A stretch of DNA of 64,000 nt, taken from contig JAFDZP010000007.1 in assembly GCA_018266835.1 (NCBI GenBank), positions 1 through 64,000 of the forward strand. The letters are read 5' to 3'. Shown piece by piece: positions 19,007-29,884 of the stretch. The notes below the pieces were generated by a model, which was not told the origin of the DNA, searched no databases, and saw nothing but the letters and a program-made list of their open reading frames with translations. A program made the position numbers and the translations under genes. The DNA comes from Bacteroidota bacterium. GTDB taxonomy: Bacteria; Bacteroidota; Ignavibacteria; Tepidaquicellales; Tepidaquicellaceae. The stretch's first letter is position 1. Every line of letters begins with the position of its first letter.

Positions 19007-20017
19007 ATGTTCTCAAAAAAAGCATTATTAATTACCGGTGGCACCGGTTCATTCGGCAAGGCTTTTGTAAAAACTATATTAGAAAAATGGCCTGATATAC
19101 AAAGACTCGTAATTTTTTCCCGCGATGAGCAGAAACAATTTGTAATGGCTCAGGATTATCCTGAAGACAAATATCCTATGATAAGATTTTTTATAGGTGA
19201 TGTAAGGGATTACAGCAGATTGAAACGGGCTCTTGAAGGCATAGATTACGTTGTGCATGCTGCTGCAATGAAGCACGTTCCTATTGCAGAATACAATCCG
19301 GATGAATGCATTAAGACTAATATCATAGGGGCAGAAAATCTTATTAATGCATGTTTACAAGCTAATGTACAGAAAGTTGTTGCGCTCTCAACAGATAAGG
19401 CAGCAGCTCCGATAAATTTATACGGAGCAACCAAACTTGTTTCTGATAAACTTTTCATAGCAGCAAATAATATAAAAGGATGGAAGCCGATTACATTTTC
19501 AGTAGTAAGATACGGTAACGTAATGGGTTCAAACGGTTCTGTTATTCCTTTCTTCCTTAAAAAACAAAAAGACAAAGTACTTCCTATAACAGATCCCAAC
19601 ATGACAAGATTTAATATAAGTCTTGCTGAAGGTGTTGATATGGTGCTTCATGCATTTGAAACCGCATGGGGCGGAGAAATTTTTGTTCCGAAAATACCAT
19701 CGTACAGAATAACGGACGTAGCCACAGCTATAGGTCCTGATTGCGAACAGAAAATTGTAGGAATAAGACCCGGAGAAAAGATTCATGAAGAAATGATTAC
19801 TACATCAGATTCATTTTATACTTACGATTTAGGAAAGTATTATACTATAATTCCATCTACACCAAGATGGAATGTGGATGATTTTATAGCGAAATTCAGC
19901 GCAAAGAAAGTAGAACCTGAATTTAAATACAACTCAGGTGAGAACGACGATTGGCTGACGGTAGAACAAATAAGAAGTTTAATAAAAAAACATGTTGAAT
20001 CAGAATTTGAAAATTAA
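19007..20017 (+). CDS. pseB: UDP-N-acetylglucosamine 4,6-dehydratase (inverting), PseB-like
   Basis: 336 residues. Known reaction: UDP-GlcNAc to UDP-2-acetamido-2,6-dideoxy-beta-L-arabino-hexos-4-ulose, first step of pseudaminic acid synthesis. Seen: NAD(P) motif TGGTGSFG (10-17), catalytic STDKAA with Asp130 and Lys131, and Tyr139-x-x-x-Lys143 (YGATK); VRYGNVMGSNGSVIP is typical of this group. Size and motif spacing match PseB/FlaA1-type short dehydratases rather than the long membrane-bound type. It is 2 bp before the PseC-like aminotransferase, which uses its product. It is the first gene after the terminator at 18882-18912 and probably has a promoter in the 110-bp gap. Confidence 0.9.
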   Translation: MFSKKALLITGGTGSFGKAFVKTILEKWPDIQRLVIFSRDEQKQFVMAQDYPEDKYPMIRFFIGDVRDYSRLKRALEGIDYVVHAAAMKHVPIAEYNPDECIKTNIIGAENLINACLQANVQKVVALSTDKAAAPINLYGATKLVSDKLFIAANNIKGWKPITFSVVRYGNVMGSNGSVIPFFLKKQKDKVLPITDPNMTRFNISLAEGVDMVLHAFETAWGGEIFVPKIPSYRITDVATAIGPDCEQKIVGIRPGEKIHEEMITTSDSFYTYDLGKYYTIIPSTPRWNVDDFIAKFSAKKVEPEFKYNSGENDDWLTVEQIRSLIKKHVESEFEN

Positions 20018-20019
20018 TA

Positions 20020-21255
20020 ATGAGTGAACTTAAAGATAAAAAGATAATTAACTCCGGCCCGATTCCTTACGGAAGACAAAACATAACTGCTGACGATATT
20101 AATGCCGTGACAGATGTATTAAAATCAGATTATCTGACACAAGGTCCGAAGATAGCTGAGTTTGAAAATAACTTTGCAGAATATATCGGAGCTAAGTATG
20201 CTGTAGCGGTGGCTAACGGAACAGCTGCATTGCATTTGTGCGCATTAGCTCTTAATGTAAAACCCGGAGACAAAGTAATTACCACACCTATAACATTTGC
20301 TGCTTCTGCAAACTGTGTAAGATATTGCGGCGGTGAAATTATTTTTGCAGATATAGACCCGGAGACATATTTAATAAATGAAAACTCTGTAAGAAAAATT
20401 TTAGAAAGCGAACCAAAAGGTTCAGTTAAAGGAATTATTCCCGTTGATTTTGCCGGAAGACCCGTTAACCTTGAAAAAATTAAGAGAATTGCCGAAGAGT
20501 ATAATCTTTGGATAATAGAAGATGCTTGTCATGCCCCGGGAGGATATTTTACCGATAGCGCCGATACAAAACAATTTTGTGGTAACGGTAATTTTGCTGA
20601 TCTTGCAATTTTTTCATTCCACCCTGTAAAACATATAGCTTGCGGTGAAGGCGGAATGATAACAACTAACAATAAAGAGCTTTACGATAACCTTTTAATG
20701 TTAAGATCTCACGGCATTACAAGAGATGTTGATTTATTTGAAAACTCAGTGAACGAAGCATCAGGTTTTTTTAATAATGAAGAGAATACAAATGATTACC
20801 CGGGTTGGTACATGGAAATGCAGCAGCTGGGGTACAATTACCGCCTTACAGATTTTCAGGCAGCGCTTGGTACTTCACAGTTGAAGAGAGCAGATGAAGG
20901 TCTTGCAAGAAGAAGAGAAATTGCAGCGCAGTACTTTGAAGCATTTAAAAACACCGGCTGCATTAAAGGCCAGTCAGGTGTTGTTGAAGGACATGGTTAT
21001 CATTTATATATAATAGAAGCAGAAGACAGATTAGGTCTGTATAATTATCTGCGTGAGAATGATATTTTTGCACAGGTACATTACGTTCCGACTCACTTAA
21101 TGCCTTATTATAAAAAATTCGGATGGAAGCAAGGTGATATGCCTTTTGCTGAAAGCTACTATCAGAATTGCCTGAGTCTTCCTATGTATCCCACACTGAC
21201 AAACGAGCAGCAAAACTTTGTAATACAGACAGTATTTGATTTCTATAAAAAATGA
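20020..21255 (+). CDS. pseC: UDP-4-amino-4,6-dideoxy-N-acetyl-beta-L-altrosamine transaminase, PseC-like
   Basis: 411 residues. Known reaction: PLP-dependent amination at C4 of the PseB product with glutamate. Seen: IPYGRQNITADDINAV at the start, PLP segment NGTAALH, EDACHAPGG with Asp168, and the Schiff-base lysine Lys204 in FSFHPVKHIACGEGG; YNYRLTDFQAALG follows. HPVKHI-CGEGG is characteristic of PseC. It directly follows the PseB-like gene (2 bp) and overlaps the next gene by 4 bp (ATGA), so translation is coupled. Well supported. Confidence 0.9.
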   Translation: MSELKDKKIINSGPIPYGRQNITADDINAVTDVLKSDYLTQGPKIAEFENNFAEYIGAKYAVAVANGTAALHLCALALNVKPGDKVITTPITFAASANCVRYCGGEIIFADIDPETYLINENSVRKILESEPKGSVKGIIPVDFAGRPVNLEKIKRIAEEYNLWIIEDACHAPGGYFTDSADTKQFCGNGNFADLAIFSFHPVKHIACGEGGMITTNNKELYDNLLMLRSHGITRDVDLFENSVNEASGFFNNEENTNDYPGWYMEMQQLGYNYRLTDFQAALGTSQLKRADEGLARRREIAAQYFEAFKNTGCIKGQSGVVEGHGYHLYIIEAEDRLGLYNYLRENDIFAQVHYVPTHLMPYYKKFGWKQGDMPFAESYYQNCLSLPMYPTLTNEQQNFVIQTVFDFYKK

Positions 21256-22115
21256 CCCCTGCATTAAAAACTTCCAAACTTGCTTTAGGCACAGTACAAT
21301 TTGGATTTAAATATGGTATAAGTAATACTTACGGTCAGACTTCTCTCAAAGAAATAGGTGAAATTCTTAAACTAGCTTTTGATAACGGGATAAGAACTAT
21401 TGATACAGCAAGACATTATGGAACAAGCGAAGAGAATCTCGGTAATTTTAAATTAGACGATTATAATATAGTATCAAAATATTTTGATACTAATGATGAA
21501 AAGACACTGAGACAATCTCTGGATGAATCTCTCAAAAGTTTAAAGCAAAAAAGTTTATACGGATATATTGCTCACAGTACTTCCACATTGTTTGAGCATC
21601 CTGAACTCTGGGACATTTTAAATCAGTTAAAAGCAGAAGGTCTGGTTCAAAAAATTGGAGCTTCTATGTATGCTCCTCAAGAGCTTAAAATGCTTTTAGA
21701 TAAAAAAATGGTTCCGGATCTGATACAAATTCCTTTCAATATTATAGATAACAGGTTCGAACCTTACTTCCCTATCTTAAAAAGTTACGGAACGGAAATA
21801 CATACACGTTCTGCTTTTTTACAGGGAATTTTTTTTATGGATTACAACAAACTTAATTCATACTTTAGCGAGCTTGTTCCATTCCTTAAAGAACTAAACT
21901 CAAATTTTCCTGATTCAAATTCTAAAGCAGGCTTTCTTTTAAATCATTGCGTTAGCAATAACAATATTGATAAGGTTGTAATCGGGGTAAATAATGCAGA
22001 GCAACTATCCCAAAATATAAATTCACTGCAGCAGGAAATTCCCTCCGTGAATTTCAGTACCGATTTGAGAATTTCAGAAAAAATATTATTGCCATCTAAC
22101 TGGCCGCAAAATTAA
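21252..22115 (+). CDS. aldo/keto reductase in the nonulosonic acid block
   Basis: 287 residues. Family: NAD(P)H-dependent reduction of aldehyde or keto sugars on a TIM barrel. Seen: LALGTVQFGFKYGIS, then the catalytic set Asp51 and Tyr56 (TIDTARHYGTSE), Lys76 (IVSKYF) and His108 (YIAHST). All four are present, so it should be active. It overlaps the PseC-like gene by 4 bp (ATGA) and is followed after 2 bp by an SDR. Such reductases recur in nonulosonic acid gene clusters, but canonical pseudaminic acid synthesis needs none, so a modified sugar is implied. The substrate is unknown. Confidence 0.85.
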   Translation: MTPALKTSKLALGTVQFGFKYGISNTYGQTSLKEIGEILKLAFDNGIRTIDTARHYGTSEENLGNFKLDDYNIVSKYFDTNDEKTLRQSLDESLKSLKQKSLYGYIAHSTSTLFEHPELWDILNQLKAEGLVQKIGASMYAPQELKMLLDKKMVPDLIQIPFNIIDNRFEPYFPILKSYGTEIHTRSAFLQGIFFMDYNKLNSYFSELVPFLKELNSNFPDSNSKAGFLLNHCVSNNNIDKVVIGVNNAEQLSQNINSLQQEIPSVNFSTDLRISEKILLPSNWPQN

Positions 22116-22117
22116 AA

Positions 22118-22912
22118 ATGAATTATCCACCCACTATAGATTTAACGAATAAAGTAATAATTGTTTCCGGAGGATATGGACATCTCGGCAAATCAATAGT
22201 AAAAGGTCTGCTCCTTCACAATGCTATAGTAATTGTAGCGGGCAGAAGCAAAGAAAAATACGATGATATCTTAAAAGAGCTTGATGAAAAACATTTAGTA
22301 AATGTTTCCTTTCAGGAATTTGATATATCTGACAGCAAATCAATTCAAAAAGGATTTGAAACAGTTTTTAATAAACACGGAAGGATAAATGTACTTGTTA
22401 ATAATGCTTGCTACCTTGAAGGTCAAAATCCTGAAACAATGACGGATGAAGAATGGCAGTCTGGGGTTACAGGAACATTATCAAGCGCCTTTTGGTGCAC
22501 AAGAGATATAATTCCATATTTAAGGAAAAGCAGTCCTGCATCAATCATTAATGTTTCATCAATGTATGGAGTTATTGCTCCTGATTTTCAAGTGTACGAC
22601 GAATCCCCTGCTTATTTAAATCCTCCGCATTACGGAGCGGCGAAGGCAGGCTTATTACAATTAACAAGATATTATGCCAGTTATCTCGGAAAAGAAAACA
22701 TAAGGGTTAACTCAGTTACTCCGGGACCATTTCCATCTAAAGAAGTTCAAAAGGATAAAGTTTTTGTTGATAAACTTGCAAACAAGACACACCTAAAAAG
22801 AATTGGAGAGCCCGAAGACATTGCAGGGGCATTTGTTTTCCTTGCATCTGACGCAGCAGCTTTTATAACCGGACAAAATATAGTCGTCGATGGCGGCTGG
22901 ACAGCAATTTAA
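22118..22912 (+). CDS. short-chain dehydrogenase/reductase
   Basis: 264 residues, classical SDR length. Seen: cofactor motif SGGYGHLG (17-24), NNA at 95-97, catalytic Ser147/148 in NVSSMYG, Tyr172-x-x-x-Lys176 (YGAAK), the family segment RVNSVTPGPF and the C-terminal FLASDAAAFITGQNIVVDGG. It resembles the PtmA-type SDRs found in legionaminic/pseudaminic clusters; this likeness is from memory of the family and is not proof of substrate. It sits between the reductase and the fused synthase/cytidylyltransferase, suggesting a redox step on a precursor or on the nonulosonic acid itself. Confidence 0.87.
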   Translation: MNYPPTIDLTNKVIIVSGGYGHLGKSIVKGLLLHNAIVIVAGRSKEKYDDILKELDEKHLVNVSFQEFDISDSKSIQKGFETVFNKHGRINVLVNNACYLEGQNPETMTDEEWQSGVTGTLSSAFWCTRDIIPYLRKSSPASIINVSSMYGVIAPDFQVYDESPAYLNPPHYGAAKAGLLQLTRYYASYLGKENIRVNSVTPGPFPSKEVQKDKVFVDKLANKTHLKRIGEPEDIAGAFVFLASDAAAFITGQNIVVDGGWTAI

Positions 22913-22927
22913 AAAAATTTTCACTAC

Positions 22928-24691
22928 ATGATTTATAATATACTAGAAGTCGCAAATTCCCATGGTGGAAATTTTGATTATCTACTTTCACTGATAGAAG
23001 AATTCAGTGAATACAAAGGCTACGGCATGAAGTTTCAACCGCTGCATCCTGATATGCTTTCAACTGAAGACTATGAGGGATATCCTATTTACAAAGAATT
23101 GATGTTTACTCCCGAACAATGGGAAAAGATTTTATCAAAAGCTAATGAAACAAAAGAAATCTGGCTGGACTTATTTGATCTGTACGGAGTTGAAGTATTT
23201 GTAAAAAACAGAGATGTTGTGAAGGGAATAAAATTTCAATCTTCAGTTTTATACAATGACGTTTTATTGAATGAGTTATCAAAACATAAACTCAAAAATA
23301 TAAATCTTGTAATCAATGTAAGCGGATATGAAATAGAGCAGATACAGGAAAGAATTAATTCTCTCAATGAAAGATTAGAACCCAAAGAAATTTTGCTTGA
23401 AGTCGGATTCCAGGCTTATCCTACTTCCCTTTTAGATTCGGGATTTGTAAAAATTCAGACATTAAAAAATATTTTCCCCAACAGAATTGTATTTGCCGAC
23501 CATGCTGCGGGAGAAAGCGAAGATTCTATCTGGCTTCCTGTTGTAGCTGCTTTAAACGGCGCTGATGTAATTGAAAAACATATTAAGCACAGCAGTCTAG
23601 AAACAAAGTACGACCATTTCTCAGCAATAGATATCGACAGGTATAGAAAATTTACAGCCAATCTTGAAAATTATTTAGATTTAAAAAACCGTCCTTTCAT
23701 TAACGAAAAGGAAAAAGAGTATTTAAGAAATTCAATACAGGTACCGATTTGTAAATCCGGTCTGGAAGCAGGTCAATTGATTAACACTTCAACTGATTTG
23801 GATTTCAAACGTTCCGGAAAACCCGGATTGAATGCTTTGCAAATTAAAGAGCTTGTTGAATCTTTTCATATCCTTGCAGTTCCTAAAAAAGCAGGTGATA
23901 CTTTTTTAAAAGAAGATTTTAAAAAAGCAACGATAGCAATTATAATAGCATGCAGATTAAAATCTGCAAGGCTGCCTAAAAAGGCATTACAAAAAATCGG
24001 CAATCTTCCTTCTGTGCAAAAATGTATAAAAAGCTGTCTTAATATTTCATCAATTAATCATGTAATACTTGCAACATCAACATTAGAAGAAGATGCCGAA
24101 TTAAAAGACCATACTTACAGATCTGATGTAATATTTCACAAGGGAGACCCTGATGATGTAATACAAAGATATCTTGATATAGCTGATAAATTGCACATTG
24201 ATGTTATTATAAGAGTCACAGCTGACAGCCCGTTTACATCTCAGGAATTTGCAGATTATCTTTTACATGAGCATTTTAATTCGGGTGCAGATTACACTGC
24301 GGCTGTAAAATCTGCTTTAGGTGCAGATGTGGAAGTGATAAATACTCAGGCACTTCATAAAGTTAAAAATCATTTCAAGAGAGCGGACTATTCAGAATAC
24401 ATGACATGGTATTTCCAAAACAATCCTGAGCATTTCAAACTCCACATTACTAATTTACCTGAGGAGTGGGTAAGAGATTACAGACTTACTTTAGATTACC
24501 CCGAAGATCTTGAATTATTTAATAAGATAGATGCTGAACTTAGTAAAGAAGATCCTGAGTACGGCACAAAAGAAGTGATTGCTTTACTTGATAGGACAGA
24601 TCTTTCAAAAATAAATCAGCACATTACTCAAAGATACGTTGTTGATAAAGAATTGATTGATACGCTTAATGAAGTTACGAAGATTAAGTAA
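22928..24691 (+). CDS. fused NeuB-like synthase, SAF domain and cytidylyltransferase
   Basis: 587 residues in three parts. Residues about 1-240 are a divergent NeuB-type TIM barrel: Glu7 in LEVANSHGG, Lys35-Phe-Gln37 in MKFQ, DLFDLYGVE in place of FSTPFD, ADH at 190-192 and EKH at 216-218. All landmarks of sialic-acid-type synthases are recognisable but altered. Residues about 265-335 (SIQVPICKSGLEAGQLI, then GKPGLNALQIKELV) fit an SAF/antifreeze-like domain. Residues about 336-587 are a cytidylyltransferase of the PseF/SpsF type, with the CTP motif ACRLKSARLPKK (341-352) and TADSPF (431-436). Condensing and CMP-activating steps are usually separate proteins. A second, canonical synthase occurs at 28024, so the N-terminal domain may have another substrate or be regulatory. 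The stop and next start overlap (TAATG). Confidence 0.85.
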   Translation: MIYNILEVANSHGGNFDYLLSLIEEFSEYKGYGMKFQPLHPDMLSTEDYEGYPIYKELMFTPEQWEKILSKANETKEIWLDLFDLYGVEVFVKNRDVVKGIKFQSSVLYNDVLLNELSKHKLKNINLVINVSGYEIEQIQERINSLNERLEPKEILLEVGFQAYPTSLLDSGFVKIQTLKNIFPNRIVFADHAAGESEDSIWLPVVAALNGADVIEKHIKHSSLETKYDHFSAIDIDRYRKFTANLENYLDLKNRPFINEKEKEYLRNSIQVPICKSGLEAGQLINTSTDLDFKRSGKPGLNALQIKELVESFHILAVPKKAGDTFLKEDFKKATIAIIIACRLKSARLPKKALQKIGNLPSVQKCIKSCLNISSINHVILATSTLEEDAELKDHTYRSDVIFHKGDPDDVIQRYLDIADKLHIDVIIRVTADSPFTSQEFADYLLHEHFNSGADYTAAVKSALGADVEVINTQALHKVKNHFKRADYSEYMTWYFQNNPEHFKLHITNLPEEWVRDYRLTLDYPEDLELFNKIDAELSKEDPEYGTKEVIALLDRTDLSKINQHITQRYVVDKELIDTLNEVTKIK

Positions 24692-25674
24692 TGAAAATTG
24701 CATTCATTACAGACGGCAACAACACGCTTGGAATGGGACACGTTTATCAGGCAATTACATTGGTAAGCTTCCTGAAAGAAGCTGAGAGTTCACTGCAAAT
24801 ATTTTTTCTGACTAAGAGTGATACACATGTAATTGATTTATTAAAAAAATCCGGATGCGGAGTTACTTATTGCAAAGATGATGAAGCAATTTTTGAAATC
24901 TTAAAAAAAGAATCTCCGGATAGAGTTATCTTCGATAAGCTGGATGTTGCTCCTTCTCTTGCTCAAAAGATAAAAGAAGAATTAAAGGTTAAGCTCGTCA
25001 TTTTAACAAATCTGACCGATGCTAATAAATATGCCGATGTAACAGTAATGGCCGGCATGGGAAGTAACTTTCAGAATATATATTCTAAAGATAAAACCAC
25101 TGGACAGGTACAATTCTGGGGACCAAAATACTGGCTCCTAAGATCTGAATTTTACGAATACACTAAGACAACAAACAGAGAACAACCTGTCAAAAATATT
25201 ATGCTAATTTTCGGCGGTGCCGATCAGGCTAATTTATCTACTCATGTTACAGATGCCCTGTTTAAGTCCGGTGAAGTTTATAATATTACAATAGTGCTTG
25301 GTTCAGCATTTGAAAATTATGATGAGTTGAATAATGTTCTGGAAAACAATAAGCAATCAGAAACAAAGGTAAATATTCTCAAAGGATTAACTGAAGTAGC
25401 TAAAACAATGAGTGTTCAGGACGTGATATTTGCATCTCCGGGACTCTCTTTTTTTGAAGCACTATTAGTCGGAGTTCCCGTATTGTGCTTTCACCAAAAT
25501 GAGTTTCAATATAACGCATGGAAGGGTCACATACCTACTCTCGATAAAAATGAGTTGGAAAAACTTCCTTCCATTATGAAAAATAAATCTTTCATTTATC
25601 CTCAGGATGAATTAATTACATCTATGGAAGTCGGTAAAGGAAAGAATGAAATAGTTACAGAAATTTTAAACTGA
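24691..25674 (+). CDS. PseG-like UDP-sugar hydrolase
   Basis: 327 residues. Known reaction of PseG: removal of UDP from UDP-2,4-diacetamido-2,4,6-trideoxy-beta-L-altrose before condensation with phosphoenolpyruvate. Seen: DGNNTLGMGHVYQ (8-20), the glycine-rich loop with His17 at the position of the PseG catalytic base; GGADQANLSTHVTDAL as the second-domain nucleotide-binding turn; SPGLSFFEALLVGVPVL as the C-terminal uridine-binding segment. The usual Arg after GHxxR is Gln20 here. GT-B-like two-domain architecture. It overlaps the preceding stop codon by one base, so it is coupled to the fused synthase. Substrate inferred from neighbours. Confidence 0.82.
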   Translation: MKIAFITDGNNTLGMGHVYQAITLVSFLKEAESSLQIFFLTKSDTHVIDLLKKSGCGVTYCKDDEAIFEILKKESPDRVIFDKLDVAPSLAQKIKEELKVKLVILTNLTDANKYADVTVMAGMGSNFQNIYSKDKTTGQVQFWGPKYWLLRSEFYEYTKTTNREQPVKNIMLIFGGADQANLSTHVTDALFKSGEVYNITIVLGSAFENYDELNNVLENNKQSETKVNILKGLTEVAKTMSVQDVIFASPGLSFFEALLVGVPVLCFHQNEFQYNAWKGHIPTLDKNELEKLPSIMKNKSFIYPQDELITSMEVGKGKNEIVTEILN

Positions 25675-25690
25675 GATTAAATTTTATAAA

Positions 25691-26716
25691 ATGAATAAGA
25701 AGATATTAGTTTTTGGAGCAGCAGGTTTTATGGGTACATATCTGATAGATGAACTCTCTAAGCAAAATTATGATATTACCGCTACCGATATAAACGAAGC
25801 GGGAGAAAAGTATTACAAAGGAAAAAATATTCCTTATATCTATGTAGATATCACAAAGCAGGAAGAATTTGAAAAGCTGCCAAAAGAAAAATTTGACGCT
25901 GTGCTTCACCTTGCTGCATTTCAGCCTGCAAATGTAAGCGCTAAGAATTACGATCCTAAGACATACATAAATGTTAATGTGATAGGTACACTAAATATTC
26001 TTGATTACTGTAAAAAGAATGATACAGGAAAAATTATTTACGCAAGCTCACACAGAAACACACAGGGACTTTGGGTAGATAATAAAGCAATTAAAGAAGA
26101 AGACGGAAGAAGTATAAAATACACCGGTGAGTATGCTATGTTCAGTATATCAGAAACAGCTGCGCAGGATTGTGTCCTTCATTATGCAGCGCAATACGGA
26201 TTAAGCAGTATAATTTTCAGATTGCCGCCTGTTTATGGCTTTGGTCCACATACTGAAATTTTCAAAGACGGAAAACCAATTAAGACAGGTTTTCAGATAT
26301 TCATAGATAACTCAATAGCATGCAAGCCGCTTGAGCTATGGGGCGATGCTAATAAGGGAAGAGATATAGTTTATATAAAAGATGTAATTGATGCGTTTGT
26401 AAAAGCAATTAACAGCAGTACTGCAAAAGGATTATATAATATTACCTCCGGAAGATATTTGACTTTGCGTGAAGAAGCAGAAACAATTGCTAAAGTTTTT
26501 TGGGGAGATGACAGTGAACCAATAATAATTGAGCGTCCTGAAAAAAACAATGGGATGGATGCATTTGTATATGATATAACTAAAGCAAAAGAAGAGCTGG
26601 GCTGGAGCCCGCAGTATTCATTTGAAGATATGCTTCATGATTATATAAAAGAAGGTAAAGATAATAAATTTGGATACCTTGTTGAAAAGAGAAAGACAAT
26701 GTTAAAAGAAGGATAA
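25691..26716 (+). CDS. NAD-dependent epimerase/dehydratase-like protein lacking the catalytic Lys
   Basis: 341 residues. An extended-SDR fold: GAAGFMG (9-15) for NAD, HLAAFQPAN, a Ser/Thr segment YASSHRNTQ, RLPPVYGFGPH, RDIVYIKDVIDAFVKAI and LGWSPQYSFEDML are all in place. The catalytic Tyr148 is present (GEYAMFS), but the residue four later is Ser152 instead of Lys. With the Lys missing, ordinary epimerase or dehydratase chemistry is doubtful; the protein may bind a sugar nucleotide without turning it over or use another residue. It lies in the nonulosonic acid block between the hydrolase and the acyltransferase. The substrate is unknown. Confidence 0.8.
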   Translation: MNKKILVFGAAGFMGTYLIDELSKQNYDITATDINEAGEKYYKGKNIPYIYVDITKQEEFEKLPKEKFDAVLHLAAFQPANVSAKNYDPKTYINVNVIGTLNILDYCKKNDTGKIIYASSHRNTQGLWVDNKAIKEEDGRSIKYTGEYAMFSISETAAQDCVLHYAAQYGLSSIIFRLPPVYGFGPHTEIFKDGKPIKTGFQIFIDNSIACKPLELWGDANKGRDIVYIKDVIDAFVKAINSSTAKGLYNITSGRYLTLREEAETIAKVFWGDDSEPIIIERPEKNNGMDAFVYDITKAKEELGWSPQYSFEDMLHDYIKEGKDNKFGYLVEKRKTMLKEG

Positions 26717-26760: not shown

Positions 26761-27294
26761 ATGTCTGAATTAAAATTAGAAGGTCTTGAGTTAATGGGTG
26801 AAAACGTTAAATCAAAATTAAAATCATGCGGCGAGGGCGTTGTTATTTATCCTATGGCAAAAATTGCATTTCCACATGTAGTTGAATTAGGTGCTCACAC
26901 AAAAGTCCGTGACTTTGCATTTATTTTTGCAGGTGAAGGATTGATAGTCGGTGAATACACAGATATACAACCTCACACAGTAGTATGGGGCGGCGGATTA
27001 ACAATAATCGGAAGCAGAGTTTCAACAGGACCCGGTACAGTATTTTTATCAGCAACTTATTCCCATGAAAAAGGAATGAAGATGGTTGACGGTATGGGTG
27101 AGAACTCAAAAGTTAAAGGCGGCAGACTTGAAATAGGCGATGATGTTTACATAGGTGCTAACTGTACAATCATGCCTGTGAAAATAGGTGAAGGCTGCGT
27201 AATCGGAGCAGGAAGCTTTGTCGGCAAAGACTGCGAACCTTGGGGAATTTATGTAGGAAGTCCTGCGAAAAGAATCGGTACAAGAGAAAAATAA
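26761..27294 (+). CDS. left-handed beta-helix acyltransferase
   Basis: 177 residues of hexapeptide repeats, for example IVGEYTDIQPHTVVWGG, IGDDVYIGANCTIMPVKIG and GCVIGAGSFV, ending in IYVGSPAKRIG as in sugar O/N-acetyltransferases (PglD, WbbJ, maltose acetyltransferase types). Known role: transfer of acetyl or other acyl groups from CoA to a sugar. In the canonical pseudaminic acid pathway the N-acetylation at C4 is done by PseH, a GNAT enzyme; none is seen in the block, so this protein may substitute. The exact acceptor is unknown. It is co-directional with short gaps to both neighbours. Confidence 0.85.
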   Translation: MSELKLEGLELMGENVKSKLKSCGEGVVIYPMAKIAFPHVVELGAHTKVRDFAFIFAGEGLIVGEYTDIQPHTVVWGGGLTIIGSRVSTGPGTVFLSATYSHEKGMKMVDGMGENSKVKGGRLEIGDDVYIGANCTIMPVKIGEGCVIGAGSFVGKDCEPWGIYVGSPAKRIGTREK

Positions 27295-27320: not shown

Positions 27321-28031
27321 ATGAAGTGCGCAATAATGCAGCCAACATATTTACCATGGCTGGGATATTTTGATTTAATAAGAAATGTTGATAAGTTCGT
27401 TATCTATGACCACGTTCAGTTTGAAAAACAATCGTGGCAGCAGCGTAACAGAATAAGGAATAAAGAAGGCGAGCTTATGCTTACAATGGCGGTAAAGCAT
27501 GAAAAGGGATTGGAAAGAAGAGTGAAAGATGTAAAGATTGATTATTCCAGAAGTATTCCGGCAAAACACTTAAATTCTATAAAGCACTCTTATGCACGTT
27601 CAAAGAATTTTTCAGATATATTTCCTGAGTTAGAAAATATTTACCAAAAAAATACTGAGTTCCTATTGGATTTAAATATTGAGTTAATAAATCTTGGGAT
27701 GAAGTATCTCTCCATTTCCAAAGATTTTATATTCTCAAGCGAAATGGATGTTCAGGGACAAAAAGTTGAAGGAATAATTGATGTCTGTAAAAAACTTGGA
27801 GCTGATAAATATCTTTCGCCCGTTGGTTCAAAATTATATATCGATGAGAATAATATTTTTCCTGAACATAATATTGAACTTTCGTATCAGGATTTTACGC
27901 ATCCTGTTTACAATCAGGTCAATTTCAAAGATTTCATTAGTCATCTTTCTTTTATAGATTATTTATTTAATGTCGATTTAGATGAAGTAAAAAAATTTGG
28001 AAATTTAAAACCGGAAAATCACCATGTTTAA
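27321..28031 (+). CDS. WbqC-like family protein
   Basis: 236 residues. The N-terminus CAIMQPTYLPWLGYFDLI, then VDKFVIYDHVQFEKQSWQQRNRIRN, is the hallmark of the WbqC family, widespread in O-antigen and nonulosonic acid gene clusters. Its biochemical role is not established; it is often placed near aminosugar and carbamoyl or acyl modification genes. No membrane segment or signal peptide. The gene overlaps the next one (PseI-like synthase) by 8 bp, so it is translationally coupled to it and probably acts in the same modification step. Confidence 0.88.
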   Translation: MKCAIMQPTYLPWLGYFDLIRNVDKFVIYDHVQFEKQSWQQRNRIRNKEGELMLTMAVKHEKGLERRVKDVKIDYSRSIPAKHLNSIKHSYARSKNFSDIFPELENIYQKNTEFLLDLNIELINLGMKYLSISKDFIFSSEMDVQGQKVEGIIDVCKKLGADKYLSPVGSKLYIDENNIFPEHNIELSYQDFTHPVYNQVNFKDFISHLSFIDYLFNVDLDEVKKFGNLKPENHHV

Positions 28032-29079
28032 AGATGAAATAAAAATAGAAAATATTACTATAGGTAAAAATCATAAGCCTTTCATAGTTGCTGAAATGTC
28101 GGGTAACCATAATCAATCTCTTGATAGAGCATTTGCAATAGTTGATGCTGCAGCAGAGTGCGGCGCACATGCAGTTAAATTGCAGACATATACTGCCGAT
28201 ACAATTACTATGAAGGGTGCTCATACTATTATGGAGGAAGGTTCATTATGGCATGGAAAAGAATTGCATGAGTTATATAAAGAAGCATACACACCTTGGG
28301 AATGGCATGGACCTATTATAAAGAGAGCAAATGAAAAAGGACTGATTTGCTTCAGCTCCCCTTTTGATGAGACAGCTGTTGATTTACTTGAATCACTCAA
28401 CACACCGTTATATAAAATAGCATCATTTGAAAATACCCATCACCCTTTGCTTAAAAAAGTAGCGCAAACAGGCAAGCCTGTTATAATGTCTACAGGAGTT
28501 TCCACTCCTGCAGATATTTACGAAAGCATTCAGGTGTTACGAAATAACGGATGCAAAGAATTAATATTGTTAAAATGCACAAGTACATATCCTGCCACTC
28601 CAGAAAATACAAATCTGAAAACTATACCTCATATGAAGGATTTGTATTCTTGTCCCATCGGCTTATCTGATCACACCATGGGTATAGGAGTTTCTATTGC
28701 AGCAGTCTCTTTAGGAGCAGTAATGATAGAAAAACATTTTACATTAAGCAGAGCAGAAGGCGGAGTTGATTCGGCATTTTCTATGGAGCCTCATGAAATG
28801 AAAAGTTTAGTTATAGAGACTGAAAGAGCATGGCAGGCATTAGGTGAAATAAAGTACGGGATACAAAAAGTCGAGAAAGAGAATGTAATGTACAAACGTT
28901 CAATTTACGTTTCGAAAGATATCAACGAAGGCGATGTATTTTCCGAAGAAAATCTGAGAGTAATTCGCCCCGGTTATGGTTTATTGCCGAAATTTTTTGC
29001 AGATGTCTTAGGCAAAAAATCTTCTAATGCTATAAAAGCAGGTACTCCATTAAAATGGGAACATCTTTTTAAACCTTAA
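28024..29079 (+). CDS. pseI: pseudaminic acid synthase, PseI/NeuB family
   Basis: 351 residues. Known reaction: condensation of a 2,4-diacetamido-2,4,6-trideoxyhexose with phosphoenolpyruvate to give pseudaminic acid. Seen: IVAEMSGNHNQ (Glu24, Asn28, His29), VKLQTY (Lys52, Gln54), CFSSPFDETAV, VIMSTGVST, LLKCTSTYPAT, GLSDHTMG (215-217) and IEKHFTLSRAEGGVDS, then a C-terminal SAF domain (about 291-351). The MSGNHN form and VKLQTYT are typical of PseI rather than of sialic acid synthases. Complete and probably active. It overlaps the WbqC-like gene by 8 bp and closes the sugar-synthesis block. A 163-bp gap with hairpins follows. Confidence 0.9.
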   Translation: MFKDEIKIENITIGKNHKPFIVAEMSGNHNQSLDRAFAIVDAAAECGAHAVKLQTYTADTITMKGAHTIMEEGSLWHGKELHELYKEAYTPWEWHGPIIKRANEKGLICFSSPFDETAVDLLESLNTPLYKIASFENTHHPLLKKVAQTGKPVIMSTGVSTPADIYESIQVLRNNGCKELILLKCTSTYPATPENTNLKTIPHMKDLYSCPIGLSDHTMGIGVSIAAVSLGAVMIEKHFTLSRAEGGVDSAFSMEPHEMKSLVIETERAWQALGEIKYGIQKVEKENVMYKRSIYVSKDINEGDVFSEENLRVIRPGYGLLPKFFADVLGKKSSNAIKAGTPLKWEHLFKP

Positions 29080-29242: not shown

Positions 29243-29884
29243 ATGCGAGTTTTATTTTTAACGGATTCGTTATCATTACCCAGAAAATATAAGACCGGTG
29301 TTGCAAAATGGGAAGATACCTATGTGAACTTACTTAAAAAAGCACGCCCCGATATTGAATTTATTCACGTAGGTTTAGGCGGCGGCACCATTACTCAAAT
29401 ATTTCTTCTTTTAAATTATTATAAGTTAACAAATCCAGATCTGGTAATATTGCACTCAGGTATTGTAGACTGTGCACCGAGAGCTTTAAGTCAGTTAGAA
29501 CTTCAGCTTGTAATTAAATTAAGAATATTCCGATTGGTAAATCCGTTCACAAATTTTTTCAGAAAGCATAGAAATATTTCTTACACAAATCCTAAAGAGT
29601 TTGAAGAGACAGTTGTAAAAATTAAAAACGTATTTCCGGATGTTCCATTTGTTACTATCGGTATTCTTCCGGGATGTGATGAATATGAAAAAACAGTACC
29701 TGGTATAACAAAAAGAATTAATACATACAACGAGATATTAAGAAGAAATTCTACATATATTTCTAATGAAGATTTTCCAAGAGACGGTATTATTGAAGAC
29801 CATCATCATTTGAATGAAAAAGGTCATAAAGTTATTTTTGACAAGATACTAAATCTACTTAGTTCGGATAAATATAAAGATTGA
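29243..29884 (+). CDS. SGNH/GDSL-type hydrolase or acyl-transferase-like protein
   Basis: 213 residues. Seen: Asp8-Ser9 in LTDSLSLP (block I), GLGGGT around 44-48 (block II), and DHHHLNEKGH (186-195), matching the catalytic DxxHLN of block V. The conserved Asn of block III is replaced by Val75 in HSGIVDC. Family role: ester hydrolysis, often removal of O-acetyl or related groups from carbohydrates. No signal peptide, so probably a cytoplasmic step on precursors. It is after the hairpin pair and overlaps the flippase start by 4 bp (TTGA). The missing Asn makes activity uncertain. Confidence 0.75.
   Translation: MRVLFLTDSLSLPRKYKTGVAKWEDTYVNLLKKARPDIEFIHVGLGGGTITQIFLLLNYYKLTNPDLVILHSGIVDCAPRALSQLELQLVIKLRIFRLVNPFTNFFRKHRNISYTNPKEFEETVVKIKNVFPDVPFVTIGILPGCDEYEKTVPGITKRINTYNEILRRNSTYISNEDFPRDGIIEDHHHLNEKGHKVIFDKILNLLSSDKYKD

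Follow-up and report, generated by a model that had tools for sequence, protein, structure and literature searches.

A NeuB-like barrel, an SAF domain, and a cytidylyltransferase fused in a single protein of pseudaminic acid gene clusters

Pseudaminic and legionaminic acids are nonulosonic acids (NulO) that decorate flagella, capsules, and O-antigens. The window analyzed here, a stretch of 64,000 nucleotides from a Bacteroidota bacterium of the Ignavibacteria, carries a pseudaminic acid gene cluster with a three-part fusion gene in its midst (Table 1). The cluster also encodes a separate PseI, 3.3 kb downstream of the fusion, in which the canonical residues are kept. No PseF-type gene lies within the cluster; a sub-threshold PseF match is located elsewhere in the genome, on a different contig and next to a further NeuB-family gene. 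A GNAT-type PseH was likewise not seen in the cluster, a missing step that the hexapeptide acyltransferase may fill. An aldo/keto reductase, mostly accompanied by an SDR, stands beside the cytidylyltransferase gene in the window (21252-22912) and in loci L061, L071, L082, L055, and L149, and both genes adjoin the fusion in L061, L071, and L082 and the SAF-cytidylyltransferase gene of Priestia described below. The aldo/keto reductase is absent from this position in the closest relative, L058, and probably represents an optional sugar modification. NulO clusters are repeatedly flanked by a gene for a small protein whose start is of the DSLxLP type (29243-29884 in the window, 7127-7831 in L050, and 8967-9617 in L052), and the window copy has no match in NCBIfam.

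Table 1. Genes of the pseudaminic acid cluster in the window, with the domains and pocket residues of the fusion (residue numbers of the fusion; replaced or retained positions in Neisseria NeuB numbering).
Feature	Coordinates	Strand	Basis or remark
PseB	19007..20017	+	TIGR03589, 508 bits, cut-off 408
PseC	20020..21255	+	TIGR03588, 466 bits, cut-off 424
Aldo/keto reductase	21252..22115	+	annotated in cluster
Short-chain dehydrogenase (SDR)	22118..22912	+	annotated in cluster
NeuB-like barrel / SAF / SpsF-type cytidylyltransferase fusion	22928..24691	+	587 aa, Pfam and AlphaFold model
NeuB-like (beta/alpha)8 barrel	22928..23692	+	residues 1-255, model strands and residue table
D81, replaces Thr110 of PEP site	23168..23170	+	Asp for Thr/Ser110 in 30/30 fusions
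V107, replaces Glu134	23246..23248	+	Val or Ile in 28/30 fusions
N130, replaces Ser154	23315..23317	+	Asn in 30/30 fusions
Q162, replaces Asn184	23411..23413	+	Gln for Asn/Ser184 in 30/30 fusions
A190-D191-H192	23495..23503	+	Ser213 to Ala in 28/30 fusions (else Thr); metal ligand His215 retained
E216-K217-H218	23573..23581	+	Glu234 and metal ligand His236 retained
SAF / antifreeze-like domain	23723..23926	+	residues 266-333, structural alignment, R295 kept
Cytidylyltransferase domain	23927..24688	+	residues 334-587, Pfam and 6oew match
PseG-like UDP-sugar hydrolase	24691..25674	+	TIGR03590, 141 bits, just below cut-off 153.6
NAD-dependent epimerase/dehydratase	25691..26716	+	annotated in cluster
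Hexapeptide acyltransferase	26761..27294	+	annotated in cluster
WbqC-like protein	27321..28031	+	annotated in cluster
PseI, canonical pseudaminic acid synthase with SAF	28024..29079	+	TIGR03586, 490 bits, cut-off 340

The fusion is read from a single unbroken ATG frame of 587 codons. Pfam assigns NeuB to residues 50-248 (50.3 bits versus a gathering score of 22.1) and CTP_transf_3 to residues 337-534 (86.2 bits versus 22.6). Pfam finds no match to SAF (PF08666) in the window protein, although it does call this domain in unfused relatives. In an AlphaFold model made from 29 relatives (mean pLDDT 91.5, pTM 0.72), eight barrel strands (residues 3-7, 33-36, 77-81, 98-103, 126-130, 154-159, 187-191, and 214-219) are followed by an SAF-like segment and then by the cytidylyltransferase. 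Residues 1-332 of the model superpose on residues 19-349 of Neisseria NeuB (1xuu; Z 28.1, rmsd 3.3, 317 residues aligned), a range that extends to the 1xuu C-terminus and thus covers the SAF/antifreeze-like domain. The best solved match of the other half, residues 333-573, is the Leptospira cytidylyltransferase 6oew (Z 26.8, rmsd 2.4, 234 residues). The initial annotation had described a fusion of a divergent NeuB-like synthase, an SAF domain, and an intact cytidylyltransferase at this position, and frame, Pfam, and model all agree with it; its landmarks E7, K35-F36-Q37, A190-D191-H192, E216-K217-H218, and the CTP motif at 341-352 are present. Profiles for its three proposed domains recovered the NeuB and cytidylyltransferase parts above cut-off, and the SAF part, uncalled by Pfam, is covered by the structural alignment. 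A frame error splitting two genes, or an assembly artifact, is excluded by at least 27 independent full-length relatives with the same domain order. The three-part fusion is real.

To describe the NeuB half, 30 fusion N-halves were aligned to 30 canonical rows (same-locus synthases, others, and nmNeuB); some of the 30 rows are one locus fetched twice or near-copies, so that 30 is not a number of independent lineages. The alignment is without gaps around positions 110, 134, 184, and 213, and a shift of one residue is possible at 154. Like the PseI/NeuB synthases (TIGR03586; nmNeuB 1xuu; C. jejuni PseI 8h2c), the N-half consists of barrel plus SAF over residues 1-332, and the window barrel retains E7, K35, Q37, K102, Y164, H192, E216, H218, and D229. 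Equivalents of Glu25, Lys53, Gln55, Lys129, His215, Glu234, His236, Asp247, and Arg314 are found in 30/30 fusions, the metal ligands His215 and His236 corresponding to H192 and H218 of the window protein, and the equivalent of Tyr186 is found in 29/30. The swap-domain arginine, Arg314 of Neisseria NeuB, is R295 in the SAF domain; in NeuB it contacts the N-acetyl side of ManNAc and orders the N-acetyl sugar (PMC6795526).

Unlike these synthases, the fusion has positions 110, 134, 154, 184, and 213 replaced (Table 1), carries an attached cytidylyltransferase, and occurs with a true PseI besides. The co-resident canonical synthases retain the usual residues at all five positions, and the substituted residues Asp81, Asn130, and Gln162 are themselves invariant among the fusions. 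The fusion scores 34.0 bits against the PseI equivalog TIGR03586, below its cut-off of 340.25. In nmNeuB, PEP is surrounded by positions 110, 129, 131, 132, 182, and 184 (PMC7371886), and an Asp at 110 would lie beside the acid groups of PEP, which counts against PEP binding. The initial annotation had regarded loss of catalytic residues as grounds against its reading, and such loss is seen on the PEP side in nearly all relatives, while the metal and sugar side is retained. It had overlooked both this systematic change and the PseI gene downstream. In close pairs, dN/dS is similar in the barrel (0.04-0.10) and in the cytidylyltransferase half (0.05-0.12), indicating that the barrel is constrained and in use. 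These values, together with the invariance of the new residues, rule out a decaying pseudogene half. Judged by its residues, the N-half most likely does not carry out the condensation.

In the cytidylyltransferase half, R343, S346, R348, L349, K352, D433, R519, and D523 are invariant across 29 sequences. The PseF family TIGR03584 was not among the families matching the fusion at E <= 0.01, and the fusion is closer to SpsF/KdsB-like sequences, with a role and a place in the pathway that would be those of PseF. Whole-genome searches found PseF above cut-off in only 1/22 fusion genomes. This, along with the motifs and the cluster context, suggests that the C-half is probably a CMP-pseudaminate synthetase. 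Other NeuA-like genes are present in many fusion genomes, and the PseF function could therefore come in trans.

The initial annotation had proposed searching for the same fusion elsewhere, and a scan of named genomes returned 30 relatives, 27 of them with the whole fusion, at 32-69% identity; the scan patterns were taken from the barrel, and barrel-less forms would escape them. The fusion occurs in the Bacteroidota (Mucilaginibacter, Adhaeribacter, Flavobacterium, and Chryseobacterium), Ignavibacteria, Balneolaceae, Bacillota (Anaerobacillus and Anaerosolibacter), Candidatus Brocadia, Syntrophaceae, Sulfurovum, Magasanikbacteria, and Pelagibacteraceae. Nearly all relatives sit in pseudaminic acid clusters: at most 10 kb from the 27 fusions there are PseB-like genes in 22 cases, PseG-like genes in 19, PseI in 19, and PseC in 17, with several loci ending at contig ends. 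In whole-genome searches PseI was above cut-off in 21/24 fusion genomes. The other three are metagenome assemblies, and in one of them, L081, a canonical NeuB-family synthase lies two genes from the fusion. The spread over many phyla with conserved cluster content suggests that the cluster carrying the fusion has been transferred between phyla. A plasmid search revealed no close fusion; an Azospirillum plasmid match with 96% coverage turned out to be two separate genes.

NeuB homologs with an altered pocket also occur as unfused, accessory genes. In every case seen, the accessory NeuB adjoins a separate cytidylyltransferase gene and a canonical NeuB is present in the same cluster. Five such pairs are in legionaminic-type clusters (L050, L051, L086, L132, and L133) and one is in a pseudaminic cluster (L149, with PseB, PseC, an aldo/keto reductase, accessory NeuB, cytidylyltransferase, PseG, and PseI). 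These pairs share the altered PEP pocket and retained metal site with the fusion and differ from it in being separate genes. The unfused signatures are Ala213, or Asp110/Gln184; the legionaminic set has Glu or Asp in place of Lys129 and Gly at 154, the L149 protein retains Ser213, and the accessory types are unlike each other at 110, 129, and 154. A search of 395 genomes with the A4 profile found the legionaminic type only in those used to build the profile, so this type is rare in the sampled phylum. The two genes of the pair are in-frame in L050 (8277-10130) and L051 (8115-9986), with a single stop plus one or two further codons between them. The best fold match, the solved structure 3g8r, was considered as an accessory NeuB and rejected, since it retains KIAS and carries STH instead of SDH.

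Two further proteins of 558-559 aa (L052, 7304-8983; L131, 7841-9517) are barrel-cytidylyltransferase fusions without SAF, have a different altered NeuB site, and each adjoin a second, canonical NeuB gene. The order is reversed in L128 (7869-9614; G159), in which a cytidylyltransferase (residues 2-244) precedes a NeuB (246-581) that retains the canonical residues except for Ser at the Arg314 position; by these residues it, rather than the window fusion, is the stronger candidate for an enzyme that truly combines synthase and CMP-synthetase. An unrooted NeuB tree sets each of four types (canonical, fusion, legionaminic-accessory, and L052/L131) apart from the rest by a supported branch. In the cytidylyltransferase tree the fusions form one group, and its sister (support 100/99) is a protein encoded on the Priestia megaterium plasmid NZ_CP085435.1 (L055, 6899-7870) and annotated as "spore coat protein". 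This Priestia protein (P0001) has only an SAF domain, weakly matched, before its cytidylyltransferase, and its gene belongs to a complete pseudaminic acid cluster on the plasmid with an intact PseI alongside, a cluster position like that of the fusion. On the simplest reading of domains and tree, the Priestia lineage would have lost the barrel. The SpsF-type enzymes 6oew and P0001 share fold and catalytic motifs with the fusion, 6oew being without both NeuB and SAF, and some SpsF-type genes have no accessory NeuB partner, such as those beside canonical NeuB in L056 and L057.

Cytidylyltransferase fusions as such are common and already known. We found others with a PseG-like domain (L139 and L140) and with a class-III aminotransferase (L014 and L036). 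Fusions among other pathway proteins were also seen, namely PseG-PseH (L062, 11783-13243, 486 aa) and PseC joined to an SDR-like domain (L076, 2607-4763, 718 aa). Published NulO-cluster fusions include SpsF with an aldo/keto reductase in Vibrio B9-25K2 (PMC7371886), in which the SpsF domain replaces NeuA as in the window fusion, and NeuB with a phosphatase in Leptospira (PMC3438082), but the partners are different and a second, pocket-altered NeuB domain is not reported for either. In the open-licence literature searched, neither the NeuB-SAF-SpsF fusion nor the accessory NeuB signature was described.

We propose, with a probability of roughly 0.6, that the fusion is a CMP-activating enzyme in the role of PseF whose rebuilt N-half binds and presents the sugar without PEP condensation. 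The separate PseI would make the nonulosonic acid, and the SpsF-type domain would transfer CMP to it from CTP. The N-half would descend from a NulO synthase in which barrel, metal site, sugar-side residues, and SAF arginine were preserved while the PEP pocket was rebuilt, and would no longer condense with PEP. The retained metal and sugar side suggests that it binds a sugar and presents or alters it; with a metal ion it most probably holds pseudaminic acid or the 6-deoxy-diacetamido-altrose precursor and presents or conditions it for the attached cytidylyltransferase. We thus infer a CMP-pseudaminate product, loss of PEP use, and hand-over of the sugar. Besides a possible PseF function in trans, two points temper this proposal. 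The lysines equivalent to K53 and K129 act on PEP in canonical enzymes and are retained, so some PEP binding by the fusion is possible, and SpsF-type genes manage without an accessory NeuB, which leaves the need for the barrel unexplained.

The initial annotation had instead favored one protein performing both steps, the N-half condensing PEP with either the sugar used by PseI or a different acceptor and the C-half then activating what is formed. The metal ligands, both lysines, and the sugar side would suit such an enzyme, three genomes have no PseI above cut-off, and L128, with its near-canonical site, indicates that proteins of this kind exist. Nevertheless, the replacement of Thr110, Glu134, Ser154, Asn184, and Ser213 in essentially all 30 fusions, while canonical PseI retains them, and the presence of PseI in the window and in most fusion genomes make this explanation improbable, the more so as the three exceptions are metagenome assemblies and L081 has its canonical synthase nearby. 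The fusion as sole synthase of the pathway is unsupported for the same reason. Use of another acceptor is possible, and the suggested channeling of an unstable product could hold only in a weaker form, with the fusion receiving what PseI makes.

If the PEP site is lost, the NeuB half could instead be a non-catalytic pseudoenzyme or scaffold that serves dimerization, stability, or allosteric control of the cytidylyltransferase. The SAF domain gives a domain-swapped dimer in NeuB (PMC6795526), and the sister Priestia protein would, by its gene context, work with SAF alone. A scaffold would have no need, however, of the metal ligands or of the Glu25, Tyr186, Asp247, and Arg314 equivalents conserved in 29-30 of 30 fusions, nor of invariant replacement residues, and we consider it rather doubtful. 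About as doubtful is new chemistry, which overlaps with our main proposal: the rebuilt barrel would be an active, PEP-free metalloenzyme whose substrate is the nonulosonic acid or the precursor, and which might, for instance, epimerize it or mutarotate it to the anomer that the synthetase takes. The coordinated and invariant replacement of the pocket around a retained metal and sugar side, the strong constraint on the barrel, and the coupling to cytidylyltransferases in pseudaminic and legionaminic clusters alike are consistent with it, but the differences among accessory types at 110, 129, and 154 make a single common reaction uncertain. We know of no NeuB-family enzyme with PEP-free chemistry of this type.

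More broadly, and as a tentative suggestion, the fusion and the accessory proteins may form a new class of NulO-synthase-derived, metal-dependent, PEP-independent enzymes or sugar carriers that several lineages have joined to CMP-NulO synthetases, by fusion or within an operon, and that act on the free nonulosonic acid after condensation and before activation. Should the CMP-activating enzyme regularly have a rebuilt synthase domain as its partner, pathway predictions based on counting NeuB genes would overcount the products, and an undescribed step or carrier would lie between synthase and activation. The signature D110, N154, Q184, and A213 lets annotators tell accessory NeuB from true synthases.
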